A stretch of DNA of 38,716 nucleotides, from positions 1-38,716 of the forward strand of contig JACRLC010000077.1 in NCBI GenBank assembly GCA_016235425.1, given 5' to 3'. A program made the position numbers and the translations under genes. Under the pieces are notes generated by a model. It was not told the origin of the DNA. It ran no database searches and saw nothing but the letters and a program-made list of their open reading frames with translations. The DNA comes from Chloroflexota bacterium. GTDB taxonomy: Bacteria > Chloroflexota > Anaerolineae > Anaerolineales > Villigracilaceae. How positions within the stretch are numbered: position 1 is the first letter of the stretch; each line of letters opens with the position of its first letter. This document shows, piece after piece, positions 24,623 to 32,393 of this stretch.

Positions 24623-25369
24623 CTAGCTTTCCCCTGGACTGACCAACCCCGCGCGGATGGCGAGAATCGCCGCCTGCGTTCGGTCAGTGACGCCGAGCTT
24701 CGAAAAAATCACGCTGACGTAGTTTTTGATGGTGCCCTCGGAGAGGAAGAGAGTTTGAGCGATTTCAGAATTGCCCAAACCGCCTGCCAGCAACCGAAGC
24801 ACTTCGCGTTCGCGTTCGCTCAGTTGGCCAACCAGCTTTTGATCCGCTATAACCGAAGTGGGTTGGCGGGCAACGTGATCGAGAATCTTTCCCGCCACGT
24901 GAGGGTCAATGTGAGTCTGTCCATGCGCCGTATCAACGATGGCTCTGGTCAAGTCTTCCTGCGGCGTATCTTTCAACAAATATCCCGCCGCGCCATTTCG
25001 AATCGCATCGAGCACCCATTCGTCTGCGTCATAGGTGGTCAAAACCAGCACGCGGACTTCCGGGAATTATTCGCGAATAATTTTGGTTGCCTGAATGCCA
25101 TTCATCTTCGGCATTTTTAGATCCATCAGAACCAGGTCGGGATGCAGCCTGCGAGTCAGATCAACGGCTTCGATCCCATTGTTTGCAACGCCAATGACTT
25201 TAATCTGGGGGGCAGGTGCCAGCATGGCGCACAAGCCCGGCTCCAAAAGTCGCTTCGCTTCCTCCAGTTGTCCGCTTAGTTCAGTGATGTTTCCCATTTT
25301 AGCCAGAATGTGACACAGCATTCTTCGATTGCCAAAGTGTTCCGCCATGATGCGGACTTCAGTGAAGGA
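24623..25369 (-). pseudogene. Broken NarL-family response regulator with a TPR-like N-terminus
   Basis: Read on the minus strand, the frame encodes the second half of a receiver ([30 protein letters not shown]) and reaches TAA at 25069-25067 after KIIRE. The same frame continues directly with FPEVRVLVLTTYD, YLLKDTP and a LuxR helix-turn-helix (LSEREREVLRLLAGG, EGTIKNYVSVIFSKL) to 24623. A single codon change, for example CAA to TAA, explains the break. The N-terminus is also wrong: in place of the beta-1 strand and acidic pair stands [20 protein letters not shown], then [16 protein letters not shown], which looks like a tetratricopeptide repeat. The joint is near 25225-25240. Two independent defects mean it is not a working regulator. 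Confidence 0.85.
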
Positions 25370-25592: not shown

Positions 25593-25620
25593 TTGACATT
25601 CCTCCCACTGACACTATACT
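25593..25620 (+). promoter_or_regulatory. Sigma-70 type promoter for the 25690-28351 operon
   Basis: TTGACA (25593-25598) and TATACT (25615-25620) are separated by 16 bases, about 70 bases before the first start codon of the operon. Confidence 0.7.
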
Positions 25621-25689: not shown

Positions 25690-26394
25690 ATGAACAAGGT
25701 TCGCTCTGTTTCAGGGGACAAGATCCGGGTGCTTATTGTGGATGACCACGCCATGGTACGGCAGGGCCTGCGGACATTCCTGGAATTGCAGGATACCTCT
25801 GCTTTGCCGATCGAAGTGACGGGGGAGGCCGCTAATGGAATCGAGGCGGTGGAATTGGCGCGTGATACGCAACCCGACATCGTTCTGCTGGATCTGGTTA
25901 TGCCTGAAATGGACGGCATCCAGGCTGCGCCCAAAATCATCGAAGCCAGTCCGCGATCGCGTGTGATCATTTTGACCAGTTTCGGCGAAGAGGATAAAGT
26001 CCTGCCTGCCATTCGTGCGGGCGCACAGGGTTATCTGCTCAAGGACATTCCGCCGAATGAATTGGTGCAGGCTGTGCGCGAGGCTTATCTTGGCAAGGTG
26101 CAGCTGCATCCTGAGGTTGCCAAAAAACTGATGTTGGCGGTGGCAGCAAAGGAGGAGCCGGCTTCAGGCCGCGCCGCGGCCAATTCCGAGAACGGGTTGA
26201 CCGGGCGCGAGCAGGAAGTCCTGCGGCTGATTGCCGATGGAATGAGCAACCATGAGATTGCCGAGAAACTGGTCATCAGCGAGAAGACCGTCAAGACACA
26301 CGTCAGCAATCTCCTCAGCAAATTGCATCTGGATGACCGCACGCAAGCCGCCATCTACGCCCTGCGGCACGGATTGACGACGGACAAGAACTGA
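25690..26394 (+). CDS. NarL/FixJ-family response regulator
   Basis: 234-residue regulator. Receiver about 10-130, with VLIVDDH, the acceptor Asp in IVLLDLVMPEMDG and Lys in YLLKDIP. A linker of about 30 residues rich in Ala leads to a LuxR helix-turn-helix (LTGREQEVLRLIADG, SEKTVKTHVSNLLSKL). AGGGAGG at 25674-25680 precedes ATG 25690 by 9 bases. Its TGA shares one base with the ATG of the kinase gene that follows (TGATG), so the two are translationally coupled and form a cognate pair. The order regulator-kinase is the reverse of that at 194-3620 and 30535-32393. Confidence 0.93.
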   Translation: MNKVRSVSGDKIRVLIVDDHAMVRQGLRTFLELQDTSALPIEVTGEAANGIEAVELARDTQPDIVLLDLVMPEMDGIQAAPKIIEASPRSRVIILTSFGEEDKVLPAIRAGAQGYLLKDIPPNELVQAVREAYLGKVQLHPEVAKKLMLAVAAKEEPASGRAAANSENGLTGREQEVLRLIADGMSNHEIAEKLVISEKTVKTHVSNLLSKLHLDDRTQAAIYALRHGLTTDKN

Positions 26395-27575
26395 TGCGTA
26401 CAGCCGGTGTGTACTTGATCTTTGCCGCGGTTGCGTTGCGCGGCGCGGTGACCTTTTCTGACGAATCGCAGTTCGGCGCGGTGCTTGGTCTTCTCGCGGC
26501 GTATGGCTTGCTCCTGTTTGCCAAAACATGGATCATTCATCGCCAATCTTCGGATTTATTTCGATCTCAATATTCACAACTGATTTATCTTTTCCTGCAA
26601 TCCACTCTCGTGATTGGCCTGTTGATCGTTTCTACATACGAGGATTTTTTCGCACTCTTGTTCGTTCCGCTCAGCCTTGATGCGGTCTCCTTCTTTGGGC
26701 GGCGTTTGGGGTTCATGGGCATTGCGGTCTTTTCACTCGCGCTCACCAGCGCGATGCTGTTTTCGGATGAAGGCCAACTTTTCGGGCTGGCCATGGGAGG
26801 ACTTTACAGCGGCATGTGTTTCCTCTTCGGTGGATACGCTCATCAGGTTCAGAAAGCCGAAGCGGCGCACGACCAAAATCAACGCATGTTCAACGAATTG
26901 CAGACCGCCCATCGTCAACTTCAAAGCTATGCGGATCAGGTGGCAAGTCTGGCGGTGGAACAGGAACGCAACCGACTGGCGCGTGACCTCCACGATTCGG
27001 TCACGCAGACGGTCTTCAGCATGAACCTGGCCGCGCAGTCGGCGCGTCTGCTATTGGATAAAGATCCGCTTCGCACTTCGGGACAGTTGCTTCGCCTCGA
27101 GGAACTTGCCGCGAACGCTTTGAGTGAGATCCAATCCCTCGTTACACAGTTGCGTCCGCGTTCGATGGCAGAAGAGGGTCTGCCTGCGGCTCTGCGCCGG
27201 ATGATAGATGAGCGTCAGGCCCGTGACGGGTTACAAGTTTCACTGGAAATGCATGGCGAGGAAAAGTTGTCCGAAGCCGTAGCCGCGGCGCTGTATTCCA
27301 TCACGCAAGAGGCGTTGACCAATGTTGCCAAACACAGCGGCGCGCGTGAAGCAACTGTCCGTTTGAACTTGGACGCTGACAAATCCTGCCTTGAAATCGA
27401 AGATCGCGGCCTCGGCTTCGATCCGCAGGCAGCCTTGAATCAACGCGGTCATTTGGGGCTGGCGGGCATGTCCGAGCGGGCGCGTGAGATCGGATGGAGT
27501 CTGTCGGTTGAGTCGCGGCACGGTCGGGGGACGCGAATTCGTGTAATGCAGAATCAACCTCGAGGTCCAGAATGA
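26394..27575 (+). CDS. Membrane NarL-type sensor histidine kinase
   Basis: 393-residue kinase. About five to six membrane helices fill residues 1-150 with no large extracellular loop, so it probably senses within or at the membrane. A coiled coil (QLQSYADQVASLAVEQERN) leads to the HisKA_3 domain with RLARDLHDSVTQTVFS (His near 200). The ATPase domain has the ALTNVAKHS N-box, EDRGLGFDP and HLGLAGMSERAREI. It is coupled to the regulator upstream and overlaps by 4 bases the next gene, a paralogous kinase without ATPase domain. The stimulus is unknown; the architecture resembles LiaS/VraS or NreB-type kinases. Confidence 0.92.
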   Translation: MRTAGVYLIFAAVALRGAVTFSDESQFGAVLGLLAAYGLLLFAKTWIIHRQSSDLFRSQYSQLIYLFLQSTLVIGLLIVSTYEDFFALLFVPLSLDAVSFFGRRLGFMGIAVFSLALTSAMLFSDEGQLFGLAMGGLYSGMCFLFGGYAHQVQKAEAAHDQNQRMFNELQTAHRQLQSYADQVASLAVEQERNRLARDLHDSVTQTVFSMNLAAQSARLLLDKDPLRTSGQLLRLEELAANALSEIQSLVTQLRPRSMAEEGLPAALRRMIDERQARDGLQVSLEMHGEEKLSEAVAAALYSITQEALTNVAKHSGAREATVRLNLDADKSCLEIEDRGLGFDPQAALNQRGHLGLAGMSERAREIGWSLSVESRHGRGTRIRVMQNQPRGPE

Positions 27576-28351
27576 AGCGGGCGTATGGTTATCAGGGCAG
27601 TTATCTGATCGGCTACATCCTCATTGCCGTGGTCGCATTGCGCGCGATCCTCTTTTATGAGGAGTCATCGAATCTCGTCGTCGCAGTCTCGCTGATTGCG
27701 ATCTATGGCCTGTTCTATGCTTTGGAGCCGTGGCTGTCGAACCATATTCGCTGGAACAACCTGCTTTACTTCCCGTTTCAAACCGCGCTGGTGCTTACGC
27801 TCTCCAACCTGCGTCCATTTTTGGATATCCAATCGCTGTTGTACATCCCGCTTTGCATCCAGGCTGTGCGCGCGTTTTCACGTCGAGCCGTTCTGATCTG
27901 GATGACTGTATACGTTGCGCTGATCGGCGCCACGCAGGTGATTGGATTGGGCTGGGTAGACGGGCTGGCGCTTCTCCTGCTCTTTCTGGCGGTGGGCGCA
28001 TTTCTGATCTCATATGATTTCCTTTATTCGCGGACCCAGGCCGACCAGGCCGAAAGTCAGCGTCTGCTCGCGGGCTTGCAGTCTGCCCACCGAAAATTGC
28101 AGGAATACGCCGCACAAGCGAAGGAGCTGGCCGCGGCACGTGAACGCAACCGACTGGCGCGCGAACTGCACGACTCGGTCAGCCAGGCGATCTTTTCCAT
28201 CACGTTGACCTCCCAATCCGCCCGCCTCCTGCTCGACCGCGACCCCGCCCGTGTCCCCGAACAACTCGACCGCCTGCAAAAGCTGACCGAGGACGCGCTC
28301 AGTCAACTGCGTTCGTTGATCGAGCAGTTGCGTCCCCCACAGAAATCCTGA
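27572..28351 (+). CDS. Kinase-like membrane protein with HisKA_3 domain but no ATPase domain
   Basis: 259-residue paralogue of the preceding kinase. About five to six membrane helices (residues 10-155), the same coiled coil (HRKLQEYAAQAKELAAARER) and a full dimerisation/phosphotransfer helix with RLARELHDSVSQAIFSITLT (His near 202). The protein then ends at LRSLIEQLRPPQKS, exactly where the ATPase domain would begin. A strong terminator starts 6 bases after the stop, so the lack is not caused by a nearby frameshift. It overlaps the full kinase by 4 bases. It could form mixed dimers with that kinase and be phosphorylated in trans, act as a phosphatase or be a dominant-negative partner; these are inferences. 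Confidence 0.85.
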   Translation: MKRAYGYQGSYLIGYILIAVVALRAILFYEESSNLVVAVSLIAIYGLFYALEPWLSNHIRWNNLLYFPFQTALVLTLSNLRPFLDIQSLLYIPLCIQAVRAFSRRAVLIWMTVYVALIGATQVIGLGWVDGLALLLLFLAVGAFLISYDFLYSRTQADQAESQRLLAGLQSAHRKLQEYAAQAKELAAARERNRLARELHDSVSQAIFSITLTSQSARLLLDRDPARVPEQLDRLQKLTEDALSQLRSLIEQLRPPQKS

Positions 28352-28356
28352 AAATC

Positions 28357-28394
28357 AGACCCTAAAGGTTTCCAAAACCTTTAGGGTCTTTTTT
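28357..28394 (+). terminator. Strong intrinsic terminator of the 25690-28351 operon
   Basis: AGACCCTAAAGGTT (28357-28370) pairs perfectly with AACCTTTAGGGTCT (28376-28389) across a 5-base loop and runs into six T residues (28389-28394). It lies 6 bases after the stop of the ATPase-less kinase gene. Confidence 0.93.
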
Positions 28395-28543: not shown

Positions 28544-28759
28544 ATGAACACTCGAATGTTGACACACCCCGCGGCGATCTGCAACTTCCGTATTGCAGTA
28601 TCCGAGCAACCAATTTATGCCTCCTCCCGCGACTACGGCTTCGACTTCAACGAAGAGGAACTGGCAGGAGATTTACTTGCCCCTTTGCCTGCGAGCGAGC
28701 CGACTCACGAAGTGGATGCGGATGAATTCGAGTCGCGCTATCTGTGGTTTGTTTCTTGA
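28544..28759 (+). CDS. Small acidic protein of unknown function (71 aa)
   Basis: Not recognised. The 71-residue product has no signal peptide or membrane helix. Its C-terminal half is acidic (FNEEELAGDLL, HEVDADEFESRYLWF). AAGGAA a few bases before ATG 28544 is a fair ribosome site, and the stop lies 11 bases before the start of the receiver gene, so the two are probably co-transcribed. Base composition matches the neighbours. It could be a small accessory protein of the receiver that follows, but nothing in the sequence proves this. Confidence 0.6.
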   Translation: MNTRMLTHPAAICNFRIAVSEQPIYASSRDYGFDFNEEELAGDLLAPLPASEPTHEVDADEFESRYLWFVS

Positions 28760-28770
28760 GGGACGAGAGA

Positions 28771-29139
28771 ATGACTGCAACCCGAGTTTTGATCGTGGAC
28801 GATGTAGTACAGGTTCGCCGCGACCTGCGCACACTGTTGAGCCTTTCCGGTGAAATTGAAGTCATCGGCGAGGCCCCGAACGGACTGGAAGCTGTGCGCC
28901 AAGCCGAGTCCATCCAACCTGACGTGGTGCTGATGGATTTGGAAATGCCTGTCATGGATGGTTACGAAGCGACGCGGCAGGTCAAGTCGCGCGTTCCATC
29001 TTGCAGGGTGATCGCGCTCACTGTGCATGATTATCCGTCGGCGCGCGCCAAGGCGCAGGAATCTGGCGTGGATGCCTTCCTCGTCAAAGGCGCGTCTGTG
29101 GAAAGTATTGTTCAAACGATTTCCAAACAAAAGGAGTAA
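28771..29139 (+). CDS. Stand-alone response regulator receiver domain
   Basis: 122-residue receiver with no output domain. The acidic pair is in VLIVDDV, the acceptor Asp in VVLMDLEMPVMDGYEATR and the Lys in FLVKGAS, so it should be active. Upstream in-frame codons to 28744 overlap the previous gene; ATG 28771 gives the usual N-terminus MTATRVLIVDD. It is similar in design to the receiver at 3909. Its stop codon overlaps the region of the AAGGAG that serves the acyltransferase gene next in line, so the genes are tightly linked. The nearby ATPase-less kinase or full kinase (26394) may be its phosphate donor (inference). Confidence 0.9.
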   Translation: MTATRVLIVDDVVQVRRDLRTLLSLSGEIEVIGEAPNGLEAVRQAESIQPDVVLMDLEMPVMDGYEATRQVKSRVPSCRVIALTVHDYPSARAKAQESGVDAFLVKGASVESIVQTISKQKE

Positions 29140-29142
29140 AAA

Positions 29143-30327
29143 ATGGAAACCAAAACTATTCAAAGAAGATTCGACCTCGACTGGCTGAGAGTGCTTGCCA
29201 TCCTGTCCGTCTTCATCTACCACTCGACGCGCTTTTTCAACCTGGGAGATTGGCACGTCAAGAACGTTATTACTTACGTATGGGTGGAGGCCCTCGAGCG
29301 TTTCATGGAGATCTGGATGATGCCGCTGGTCTTCCTCATCTCCGGTGCAAGCATCTTCTACGCCATGAACAAAGGCGGCGCGGGCACATTCTTTAAGGAC
29401 AAAGTCTTTCGCCTGCTTATCCCCCTGCTGGTGGCGATGTTCACGTACGCATCCCTGCAAATCTACCTGGAGAGGGTCACGCACGGCCAGTTCAGCGGCT
29501 CGTATTTCGCATTCCTGCCGCACTATTTCGAAGGCGTGTACTTGGATGTCGGCAGTGCCGGCAACTTCGCCTTCCACGGGATGCACATGTGGTATGTGAT
29601 GATCTTGTTCATCTACTGCCTGCTCTTCCATCCGCTCTTCCGCTGGTGGAAGGGGAGCGGGCGCGGCATGCTGAATAAAATCGGTGACATCCTCGGCTTT
29701 CCCTGGACCCTGTGGCTGGCTCTGGCTTTCCCGATCCTTATCCTGAATATCTGGGTGAGTGACACCGACTTGGAGTTTGGGGCAGGTGGCTGGCCTTTCC
29801 TATACTACATCTTCTTCCTGCTCTACGGATTTGTGATCGTCTCGCATGAACGTTTGCAGGCGAACATCAAACGGATGCGCTGGTTTCATCTGACCCTGGG
29901 GCTTGTTCTCTCAGCGGCGCTCCTTATCCTCACTGCGAATCCAGCCCTTGCATCTTTGGAAGACGCGCTGGGTGAGACGTTCTACATCCTCAGTGCTTGC
30001 TGTCTGCTCCCCGCTTTCCTCGGCTTCGGGATGCAGCATCTAACCAAAACCAGTCCATTCCTCAAATATGCAGGCGAAGCCGTGATGGGTTTCTACATCC
30101 TGCACCAGACCGTGCTGTTGATTGCCGGCTATTTCGTCGTGCAATGGGCTATTCCTGATTTCGCGAAATGGATGGTCATCCTCACCACCTCATTCGTCGT
30201 CATCATGGCAACTTACGAATTTGCGGTGCGGCGCGTCAACGTCCTGAGATTCCTGTTCGGGATGAAGCCCATAACCAGGGCCCCCGCCGCCCAGACCATG
30301 GATCCTCAAGTTGCCAAGGCAGCTTGA
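29143..30327 (+). CDS. Acyltransferase-3 family membrane protein (OpgC-like)
   Basis: 394-residue integral membrane protein with about ten helices. The N-terminus RRFDLDWLRVLAILSVFIYH is the acyltransferase-3 start motif, with the His that family members use in acyl transfer. It resembles glucan-modifying OpgC/MdoC-type proteins and other enzymes that O-acylate cell-surface glycans. AAGGAG (29131-29136) is 6 bases from ATG. It follows a receiver-only gene, so surface modification may be under signalling control. The substrate cannot be named from the sequence. Confidence 0.85.
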   Translation: METKTIQRRFDLDWLRVLAILSVFIYHSTRFFNLGDWHVKNVITYVWVEALERFMEIWMMPLVFLISGASIFYAMNKGGAGTFFKDKVFRLLIPLLVAMFTYASLQIYLERVTHGQFSGSYFAFLPHYFEGVYLDVGSAGNFAFHGMHMWYVMILFIYCLLFHPLFRWWKGSGRGMLNKIGDILGFPWTLWLALAFPILILNIWVSDTDLEFGAGGWPFLYYIFFLLYGFVIVSHERLQANIKRMRWFHLTLGLVLSAALLILTANPALASLEDALGETFYILSACCLLPAFLGFGMQHLTKTSPFLKYAGEAVMGFYILHQTVLLIAGYFVVQWAIPDFAKWMVILTTSFVVIMATYEFAVRRVNVLRFLFGMKPITRAPAAQTMDPQVAKAA

Positions 30328-30534: not shown

Positions 30535-31740
30535 ATGGAACCCCGCCCCACACTTTCCACAACCCAGGATCAACAGGGAAAAGCGCTTCTCCTGTTCATG
30601 GTAGTCATCGGCTATCTCGTCACCTTCCTGGCGGCATCGCGGGATGACATACAGTTTTCCGTTTCCCGATTGTTTGTGGGAATTGCGTTTGGAGTGGTCT
30701 TTCTGATCCTGGGCGTTTTTGATGCAGAGATTTTGCGGCGTTTCTCGGCAAATACGAGGAACGCTTTATTTTTCTCCATTCAGTGCGCGCTCGTCTTTGG
30801 CATCGGTTGGACTCTCGGGCCCGGCGGCCACTGGCTGATTGGCCTGCCGCTGGCAGGCATGGCAGTGGACAGGTTATCACCGCGCTGGCGCTGGCTGGTT
30901 TACGCCGCGCTGATTGCAACGGTTATTTTGCCGATCGGTCTGCGCTATTCCACATGGGAGACCGCGCTCTTCAATGGATTTATCATCTCCACAGCGATTT
31001 TCTTCGTGGTTGTATTTTCGCAATTTCGTTTGAATGAACAACAGGCGCGCGAAAAAGCCGAGGAGCTTGCAAAACAATTGGAAGCGGCTAATCATCAATT
31101 GGCTGAATATGCTTCACAGGCTGAGGAGCTTGCCGCCACGCAGGAACGCAATCGCCTGGCGCGCGAGATTCACGATAATCTCGGCCACTACCTGACTATT
31201 ATCAACGTGCAGATCGAGGCCGCGAAAGTAACCCTGGACTCCGACCCAAAACGCACATGGGATGCGCTGAACAAGGCGCAGGAACTTGCAAGAAAAGGAC
31301 TGACCAGTGTGCGCGAGTCGGTCTCGGCTCTGCGCGTGTCGCCTGTGGAAAATCGTCCATTGGAAGAAGTCATTTCCACGTTGGTTGATGAGACACAAGC
31401 AACAGGTATCACTGCGAAGTTCGATGTTCTTGGCGAGCCTCGCGCTGTGGATGAAAAAGTCGCGCTGGCGTTGTATCGTGCCGCGCAGGAGGGATTGACC
31501 AACGTCCGCAAACATGCAAATGCTTCATGCGTGGATGTCGAATTGGATTTTTCCCGGCCCGATAAGATCCGCCTCTCTGTTCGGGACGATGGGGCTGGTG
31601 CGGCTGACACGAGCAGTGGATTCGGCCTTGTCGGAATCCGCGAACGCATCCATTTGCTAGGTGGTGATTGCAAGATCGAGACACAAGCTGGAAAGGGATT
31701 TTGTCTCGAAGTAAGTGTGCCTGTGGCAGAGGAGGAATGA
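30535..31740 (+). CDS. Membrane NarL-type sensor histidine kinase (LiaS-like layout)
   Basis: 401-residue kinase. About six membrane helices lie in residues 15-165, followed by a coiled coil (EKAEELAKQLEAANHQ) and a HisKA_3 domain with RLAREIHDNLGHYLTI (His near 209). The ATPase domain shows GLTNVRKHA, RDDGAGAAD and FGLVGIRERIHLLGG. It is followed without a gap by its regulator gene (the TGA stop shares a base with ATG 31740). The short loops between helices suggest intramembrane sensing, as in LiaS/VraS kinases of cell-envelope stress. Genes for envelope-type proteins lie downstream at 32560-34935. Confidence 0.92.
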   Translation: MEPRPTLSTTQDQQGKALLLFMVVIGYLVTFLAASRDDIQFSVSRLFVGIAFGVVFLILGVFDAEILRRFSANTRNALFFSIQCALVFGIGWTLGPGGHWLIGLPLAGMAVDRLSPRWRWLVYAALIATVILPIGLRYSTWETALFNGFIISTAIFFVVVFSQFRLNEQQAREKAEELAKQLEAANHQLAEYASQAEELAATQERNRLAREIHDNLGHYLTIINVQIEAAKVTLDSDPKRTWDALNKAQELARKGLTSVRESVSALRVSPVENRPLEEVISTLVDETQATGITAKFDVLGEPRAVDEKVALALYRAAQEGLTNVRKHANASCVDVELDFSRPDKIRLSVRDDGAGAADTSSGFGLVGIRERIHLLGGDCKIETQAGKGFCLEVSVPVAEEE

Positions 31741-32393
31741 TGGCGATTCGAGTTCTTCTTGTAGATGACCAGGCTCTCTTTCGTGAGGGATTGGATACGC
31801 TGTTATCCGCCCACAAGGATATTCAAGTCGTTGGGCAGGCATCGAATGGACAGGAAGCGATTGACCTCGCGCTGAAACTTCGTCCCGATGTGATCTTGAT
31901 GGACATGCAAATGCCTGTGCTGAATGGCATCGGCGCGACGCGGCGGTTGAAAGGGTTACTGCCCGATTGCCGTGTGATCGCGCTAAGCACGTTCGATGAC
32001 AAGGAGTACATTTTTGACGCGTTGCGCGCCGGCGCGGTGGGGTATTTGCTTAAGGATGTGGGATCGGCGCAGTTGGCAGAGTCCATTCGGAGGACGGCGC
32101 GCGGCGAGTCGATTCTCGATCCGTCGGTGGCCGCGAAAGTGGTGGTGGAATTCAGCCGCGTATCCTCCCTGGTAACGGCGACCAGTTCCGAGGTCCTGAT
32201 TGAACCGCTTTCCGAGCGTGAGATCGAAGTCCTGAGGCTGGTCACAGTCGGGTTGTCGAATCGAGAAATTGCGGAGAGACTGGTCATCAGCGCGGGCACC
32301 GCCAAGACACACATCCATAATCTGTGCGGGAAGTTGGGCGCGCACAATCGCACCGAGGCGGCGATGCGGGCGAGAGAATTAAACCTGGTTTAG
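31740..32393 (+). CDS. NarL/FixJ-family response regulator
   Basis: 217-residue regulator and evident partner of the kinase upstream. The receiver has VLLVDDQALFREGL, the acceptor Asp in VILMDMQMPVLNG and Lys in YLLKDVG. The LuxR helix-turn-helix contains LSEREIEVLRLVTVGLSNRE and SAGTAKTHIHNLCGKL. The frame is open back to 31668, but GGAGG (31731-31735) and the receiver start favour ATG 31740; ATG 31737 is only 1 base from the ribosome site. A terminator follows at 32415-32450. Confidence 0.93.
   Translation: MAIRVLLVDDQALFREGLDTLLSAHKDIQVVGQASNGQEAIDLALKLRPDVILMDMQMPVLNGIGATRRLKGLLPDCRVIALSTFDDKEYIFDALRAGAVGYLLKDVGSAQLAESIRRTARGESILDPSVAAKVVVEFSRVSSLVTATSSEVLIEPLSEREIEVLRLVTVGLSNREIAERLVISAGTAKTHIHNLCGKLGAHNRTEAAMRARELNLV

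Follow-up and report, generated by a model that had tools for sequence, protein, structure and literature searches.

What can a histidine kinase-like protein without an ATPase domain do when it is encoded directly beside a complete kinase? The question is raised by a 38,716-nucleotide contig (JACRLC010000077.1 of assembly GCA_016235425.1, from a Chloroflexota bacterium of the family Villigracilaceae), the whole length of which we call the window. Here the gene of a NarL-type response regulator is followed by that of a full histidine kinase of the HisKA_3 family and then by that of a short paralogue, which we refer to as the short kinase. Histidine kinases are normally viewed as self-sufficient homodimers, and a DHp domain, the part that bears the phosphorylated histidine, is unable to phosphorylate itself without the catalytic (CA, or HATPase) domain. 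A sequence-only reading of the window had taken the short gene to be functional and coupled to the full kinase, with a mixed dimer phosphorylated in trans or a dedicated phosphatase as candidate arrangements. Comparison with relatives supports the coupling and makes a signalling receptor of two subunits a likelier reading than a broken gene. We put at roughly 0.5 the probability that the short kinase serves a mixed kinase receptor as its dedicated non-catalytic subunit, with an ATPase that would come only from the full kinase.

The short gene encodes a protein of 259 amino acids from an ATG start, and its sole Pfam match is PF07730 (HisKA_3; residues 191-257, E 1.3e-20), no HATPase domain being found by Pfam even at E 0.1. 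The sensor helices and the phosphorylated-histidine helix are kept, as had been claimed: six membrane helices are predicted, and the DHp reads H200-D201-S-V-S-Q205, a stretch that contains DxxxQ, the phosphatase motif of HisKA_3 kinases (PMC3510030, PMC5231405). Counting the histidine, the protein ends 60 residues from it. A structure model built from five orthologous sequences (mean pLDDT 75.7) has helices at residues 9-28, 34-58, 62-78, 87-101, 104-126 and 128-223, of which the first five are of membrane type and the sixth continues without a break into DHp helix 1, forming a single long helix; DHp helix 2 covers residues 225-253, and the model contains no structural element C-terminal to it. 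DesK, which has a CA domain, matches the short DHp in sequence (E 2.1e-7, residues 169-254) and is also the top structural match, weak by E-value (Foldseek E 0.45, probability 1.00, TM 0.30), with nothing in the structure library searched reaching E 0.001 or better; the solved matches are the DesK entries PDB 7ssj, 3gig and 3ehf, and include a DesK-DesR complex in the phosphatase state. Of the two defining parts of a HisKA_3 sensor histidine kinase, the short kinase has the DHp with its histidine and lacks the HATPase domain. Its gene does overlap that of the full kinase by four bases, an ATGA being common to the 3' end of one and the start of the other, and the two proteins are 39% identical across residues 15-256. 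The organism's own genome holds 25 PF07730 matches, two of them in frames below 340 amino acids: the short kinase, and a 227-amino-acid open reading frame that, judged by eye, continues through HATPase-like motifs (the remaining 23 frames have 343 amino acids or more). That a programmed frameshift gives access to an ATPase domain hidden in another frame is unlikely, although no dedicated search was made, because a terminator-like hairpin begins 5 nt past the stop codon and only 192 nt separate that stop from the next gene.

Is the gene simply a kinase that has recently lost its end? In five named Chloroflexi contigs, relatives with 62-79% identity are short too and lie beside a full kinase, except that one of the five (L042, the contig of genome G118) has a disrupted reading frame for the short kinase. 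With profile searches, short kinases came to light in 15/152 genomes of the family, 23/400 of the order, 9/396 of the class and 2/400 of a phylum draw; these samples overlap, and the family and order counts take in the broken G118 copy. Six of the 400 phylum-draw genomes match, all from the same class (the number of the 400 lying outside that class is not given), and two of them (G000, G048) carry a short kinase. Altogether there are 32 intact short kinases in 31 genomes (two in G254), a count from which the frameshifted G118 copy is excluded. They were found with profiles built from short kinases at E 1e-35 and recognised by their short reading frame, a procedure that would miss more diverged ones; the G174 protein, inside a longer frame, was placed by hand, and start codons were hand-chosen and are uncertain for some, for example in G127 and several of the second type defined below.

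Relatives with a full ATPase domain at this place would have refuted the sequence-only reading, and no such relative was found. By Pfam, HisKA_3 is present in all 32 intact proteins and HATPase in not one at E 0.1, and all 32 stop 56-64 residues from the histidine, with the histidine counted (in G034 measured from the aligned arginine); full kinases extend 186-205 residues from theirs, and 84 in the frameshifted G060. Conserved full/short pairs, which the sequence-only reading had suggested looking for, were found throughout: a full kinase lies beside each of the 32, in 29 cases intact with both domains by Pfam, once frameshifted (G060) and twice partial, the contig edge leaving in G648 and G533 the 3' end with HATPase only. 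The full-kinase rows scanned by Pfam, which leave G060 out, show HATPase_c in 32/32 and HisKA_3 as well in the 30 whole rows. Two gene orders occur, regulator-full-short (type 1, 18 short kinases) and full-regulator-short (type 2, 14 short kinases), and the ATGA overlap recurs in 8 of the 10 type-1 loci measured. The two frameshifts in assemblies, in the G118 short gene (L042 / G118:C2) and in the G060 full kinase gene (L105 / G060:C76), may be assembly errors or real changes.

One might still suspect a functionless, decaying remnant of a tandem duplication, as the gene is a truncated paralogue adjoining a parent-like gene and the G118 copy is frameshifted in its assembly. The data on selection and conservation contradict this, with a dN/dS of 0.14-0.26, a uniform end point in 32/32 and membership in one old clade, and we give decay next to no credence. 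Recent truncation or a pseudogene is ruled out by relatives that are likewise short, by their uniform end point, by the single clade and by purifying selection. The estimate comes from four close pairs, of which three were formed from a single set of three genomes; full kinases there show a dN/dS of 0.23-0.31, and the short gene and its partner are by this measure under equally strong selection. In type 1, mean pairwise identity of the DHp is 0.81 among short kinases and 0.79 among full kinases (15 of the 18 pairs), as high in the former as in the latter, so the domain is not relaxed. No part of the type-1 short kinase is better conserved: the linker helix stands at 0.77 and the sensor part at 0.53, and the sensor part is freer than in the full kinases (0.60).

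The residues themselves tell a similar story. The complete H-D-Q set is present in 30/32 short and 31/31 full kinases, and the histidine, whose loss would likewise have refuted the sequence-only reading, is kept in 31/32 short kinases. The G216 protein has alanine in place of the aspartate, and in G034 all three residues are gone; that G034 gene (L043 4272-5066, G034:C102) still stands beside a full kinase and a regulator and offers a natural His-less control. Some DHp residues are specific to the short kinases: Q at H+36 and R at H+47 occur in 31/31 (G034 excluded), while full kinases are mixed at H+36 and have R at H+47 in 2/31, and T at H+4 is never seen in short kinases and present in 31/31 full ones. 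Together with the retained motifs, these residues look like specialisation, not decay. An earlier idea that a threonine before the catalytic glutamine is an ancestral state lost in short kinases was dropped, since the outgroup kinases may have S, A, T or G at that position.

The same residues bear on the possibility that the short kinase is a pseudokinase modulator, acting allosterically on the full kinase via membrane and coiled-coil contacts with its histidine chemistry unused. RocA and evolved ChrS work without their histidines (PMC7028121, PMC9491836), and the gene is kept in G034 and G216 despite lost catalytic residues. But retention of H, D and Q in 30/32 across deep divergence is not what one would expect of unused chemistry, nor is a DHp that is the best conserved part of the type-1 protein, and we consider such a modulator unlikely.

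How old, then, is the arrangement? A tree of 82 rows separates the 32 short kinases from all other rows by a single branch (90/79, 87% of 200 bootstraps), and in a first tree of 71 rows 25 of them stood together at 93/66, so a single origin has moderate support. The type-1/type-2 split is mirrored by two full-kinase clades (100/100 and 100/99), of which the type-2 clade also holds the kinase of short-less G714, cut by the contig edge. Full kinases came out together (98/88) in the first tree, which omits short-less kinases, and are not one clade in the second, for which eight outgroup rows were thinned and the duplicate O_L012 = F_G034 was dropped. The deciding deep forks of the second tree are weak (17/56), such that a single duplication may or may not have preceded everything. 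Three loci (in G670, G652 and G634) have a full kinase, a NarL-type regulator and a single-domain receiver without a short kinase, and may resemble the pre-duplication state. Distances among short kinases and among full kinases agree, with a Mantel r of 0.967 (27 of the 30 pairs) that shared ancestry and linkage alone could yield. This test and the comparisons by protein region used 15/18 type-1 and 12/14 type-2 pairs; missing are G272, G516 and G454 (not listed) and G648 and G533 (no whole partner).

From what is observed, namely the conserved anatomy, the co-inheritance with the full kinase, the purifying selection and the kept H, D and Q, we infer how such a pair might work. The short kinase would pair with its sister full kinase via the membrane part and the DHp helices, and the full kinase's ATPase domain, the sole one in the mixed dimer, would phosphorylate His200 of the short kinase, its own histidine, or both. 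The HDxxxQ face of the short kinase could then hand phosphate to, or strip phosphate from, the NarL-type regulator and, where present, the single-domain receiver, and the short kinase's own sensor part might allow a second signal to set the kinase/phosphatase balance. We favour this mixed receptor because the histidine is kept, the DHp is unrelaxed, the protein has a sensor part of its own and its partner is fixed.

Several points weigh against it. The full partner retains its own histidine and ATPase and could act alone, and the three short-less loci described above have the rest of the machinery. Given the losses in G034 and G216, the histidine is not indispensable everywhere. Identity between the short and full DHp of the same genome is no higher than between genomes (0.549 vs 0.547, type 1), which leaves no direct trace of interface co-evolution; with no excess similarity within genomes, gene conversion between the two genes was rejected along with it. 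CA-less ChrS gave no two-hybrid heterodimerisation, though the full proteins did (PMC9491836), and no passage on cis versus trans phosphorylation by HisKA_3 kinases was found in the available excerpt of PMC5231405.

It is also possible that the short kinase acts without its partner, as a homodimeric phosphatase or phosphate sink for the NarL-type regulator, the receiver or both, opposing the full kinase with an activity set by its sensor part. The D and Q of the phosphatase motif are present in 30/32; in HisKA_3 kinases the histidine is reported to be dispensable for phosphatase action, for which the glutamine positions water (PMC5231405), and for the phosphatase of NarX it is reported as non-essential (Huynh et al. 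2010, as cited in PMC5231405). Going by its title, Zhu et al. 2000, from the reference list of PMC5231405, reports phosphatase activity of EnvZ lacking the catalytic domain, and the best solved match of the short kinase is DesK, including the complex in the phosphatase state. A phosphatase would have less use for a histidine kept in 31/32, which goes beyond what that activity needs, and phosphatase function was seemingly lost in CA-less ChrS (PMC9491836). We therefore rank this explanation as possible, if on the unlikely side.

What might the mixed receptor serve? The unit consists of the NarL-type regulator, the full kinase and the short kinase, plus, for 24 of the 32 short kinases, a single-domain receiver (REC), mostly then followed by a membrane acyltransferase. 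In the window, a small acidic protein that we call sm, the REC and the acyltransferase lie downstream of the short gene; the sequence-only reading had not noted them as unit parts. A relative of the regulator stands in the same place in type-1 loci (partial in G171); in G330 and G538 the regulator gene lies in an unusually long frame. Among the 152 family genomes, the 13 strongest short kinases, sm and REC are found in the same 13 genomes, where the REC matches have E 2.1e-58 or better, the next best among the 152 being 1.5e-35. In the family, G048 and G055 carry a short kinase as well, of type 2, but neither has sm or a close REC; a weak sm match also occurs in G342. Counted over all short kinases, a REC is present for 18/18 of type 1 (on another contig in G024 and G516) and 6/14 of type 2. 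No close REC was found in the genomes of the other eight, meaning no genome match better than E 8.5e-34, which is the best match there; REC-bearing genomes all reach 1.1e-36 or better, and further receiver matches, weaker ones in short frames, do occur in G048, G034 and G216. In an alignment of 13 REC sequences, D10, D11, D56 and K106 are invariant and T84 nearly so, such that the residues of a working receiver are kept. The sm protein has no match in Pfam or NCBIfam, and its structure model (mean pLDDT 57.4) is too poor for use.

The 13 shared genomes invite a narrower scheme, a phosphotransfer branch in which the full kinase would phosphorylate the short kinase, the short kinase would serve the REC alone and the REC would in turn regulate the acyltransferase. 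Short kinases that have lost residues number 2/8 where there is no close REC versus 0/24 where there is one (one-sided Fisher p 0.056, the rows not being independent), a coincidence that we treat as a lead. Yet 8 of the 32 short kinases belong to genomes without a close REC and six of these keep H-D-Q, a REC occurs without a short kinase in G670, G652 and G634, and REC types do not track kinase types, all of which makes this branch very unlikely. The idea of short kinase and REC as an exclusive pair is weakened by the same eight short kinases and three short-less loci.

The acyltransferase (PF01757) lies adjacent to the REC or no more than 1.6 kb away in 19 of the 24 REC-bearing loci (a count that includes G118, with G516 not testable), with two copies in eight of the 19 and a frame that is broken or short in G171 and G049; none was found in the seven REC-less loci examined (G538 lies outside these). 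In the short-less loci it follows the REC in G670, at 50% identity, and as a weaker match in G652 and G634. The acyltransferase of the window is probably an output gene beside the REC and possibly its direct target; that the REC acts on it is a guess from gene order. In EpsW-EpsZ, a single-domain regulator activates a membrane glycosyl transferase (PMC12802240). Taking all of this together, we offer only tentatively the fuller picture of an obligate two-subunit receptor kinase, in which an ATPase subunit would phosphorylate a permanently ATPase-less sister, the two would sense different signals, and the output would be split between the NarL-type regulator for transcription and a REC acting directly on a surface-modifying membrane acyltransferase.

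Two loci depart from the usual layout. One (L106, G049:C132) has an extra kinase-regulator pair between the short gene and sm-REC, with both unit parts kept. In the other (L044, G001:C95), whose genome shares its genus with that of the window, a full-regulator-short trio of type 2 precedes sm, REC and acyltransferase. The G001 REC clusters with type-1 RECs (91/91), its regulator with that of type-2 G342 (100/94), and its short and full kinases with type 2, and the trio was apparently swapped as one unit (in the REC tree, the out-of-frame RR_G670 row was ignored and the bootstrap had not settled). From these mixed affinities the short kinase appears to travel with the full kinase and regulator rather than with the REC.

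Table 1. Features of the unit and its flanking signals, in window positions
Feature	Position	Strand	Description and basis
Promoter-like site	25593..25620	+	TTGACA-16-TATACT, upstream of regulator gene; consensus scan, 11/12 matches
NarL-type response regulator	25690..26394	+	Response_reg + GerE; Pfam
Full histidine kinase	26394..27575	+	HisKA_3 + HATPase_c, HDSVTQ; Pfam and alignment
Short kinase (short partner)	27572..28351	+	6 predicted membrane helices and complete HisKA_3 DHp (H200, D201, Q205), no HATPase
Intrinsic-terminator-like hairpin	28357..28389	+	15 pairs, loop 3, T-run; begins 5 nt past the short stop codon
Small acidic protein sm	28544..28759	+	71 aa; conserved DYGFD stretch
Single-domain receiver (REC)	28771..29139	+	Pfam; alignment of 13 sequences
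Membrane acyltransferase	29143..30327	+	Acyl_transf_3, PF01757, weakly MdoC-like; Pfam, NCBIfam match below cut-off

The surroundings of the unit add some detail (Table 1). The terminator that had been described right after the short gene is there in the window, and is not a general feature of relatives: when the stretch past the short gene was scanned in a simple way, over at most 150 nt (75 nt in G024, and nothing to scan in G538), stems of at least 10 pairs turned up in 5 of 33 loci (G000, G118, G046, G174, G272). Promoter-like sites in the region number three against 2.1 expected, so the site upstream of the regulator gene is weak evidence for a promoter. Adjoining the unit, a NarL-type regulator is split across two frames on the reverse strand (24623-25348), one piece (25067-25348) being a receiver without a usual start and the other (24623-25051) bearing GerE; it looks like a decayed regulator. 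Just downstream, on the forward strand (30535-32393), lies a second pair of HisKA_3 kinase and NarL-type regulator, whose kinase has the H-box HDNLGH; the phosphatase-motif glutamine is missing there, as it also is from several more of the outgroup kinases.

Why does such a pair matter? A natural pair in which one partner is permanently ATPase-less, kept through deep divergence, would be a clean system for testing whether kinase receptors can be obligate heteromers, and would also allow the division of phosphotransfer and phosphatase action between subunits to be tested. With it one could ask, too, whether the response becomes switch-like, which is what modelling gave for split kinases (PMC3591291). 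For annotators there would be a warning that such genes are not to be called truncated.

How does the pair compare with known systems? The layout had been called unusual, and it is, but precedents exist in FasBC, RocA, evolved ChrS and a 2013 count of HisKA proteins. No paper describing the arrangement in Chloroflexota was recognised by title or abstract start, with subscription journals and preprints outside coverage, and no description of a natural, old CA-less HisKA_3 partner always beside a full kinase was found in the literature searched. The closest likeness is FasB-FasC of group A Streptococcus, likewise two co-encoded kinase-like membrane proteins with one regulator, in which FasC needs only its membrane and DHp parts and H246, FasB is proposed as the ATPase source, and the two interact in two-hybrid assays (PMC12675982). 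As in that system the partner is co-encoded and co-inherited, a full kinase standing beside all 32 intact short kinases. FasC, however, retains a dispensable kinase domain (PMC12675982) that all 32 short kinases lack, and unlike FasB-FasC the unit often carries a REC and an acyltransferase.

Two pseudokinases are also similar. The CA-less ChrS of Corynebacterium glutamicum is cut just past the DHp and acts via a full paralogue, but it is a laboratory mutation, its histidine is uninvolved, and it is described as not yet known naturally in corynebacteria (PMC9491836), whereas the short kinase is natural, old and keeps its histidine in 31/32. RocA is a six-helix membrane pseudokinase that binds and tunes the full kinase CovS, and is reported to be functional when overexpressed without its CA domain; it differs in having a degenerate CA domain and a dispensable histidine (PMC7028121). 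With pseudokinases of the RocA and DivL kind the short kinases share an absent or degenerate catalytic domain, and of their own histidines only that of G034 is lost. The split kinases CheA3/CheA4 (PMC3591291) and Hik36/Hik43 (PMC7656254) also place phospho-accepting and ATP-using parts on separate proteins. The pair is not a split kinase of the CheA3/CheA4 type, because its full partner is a complete kinase that keeps its own histidine and ATPase, whereas CheA4, the ATPase partner, lacks a phospho-accepting domain (PMC3591291). Finally, a SMART count from 2013 found 1556 of 42417 HisKA proteins without HATPase, 711 of them with the phosphatase motif (PMC3591291); it concerns HisKA, not HisKA_3, and is a count that covers neither neighbouring genes nor any conserved pairing. 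As a class, CA-less DHp proteins are thus already known, as are CA-less or degenerate partners (the ChrS mutant, RocA, FasC), and what appears new here is a natural, old and apparently obligate CA-less partner within the HisKA_3 family.

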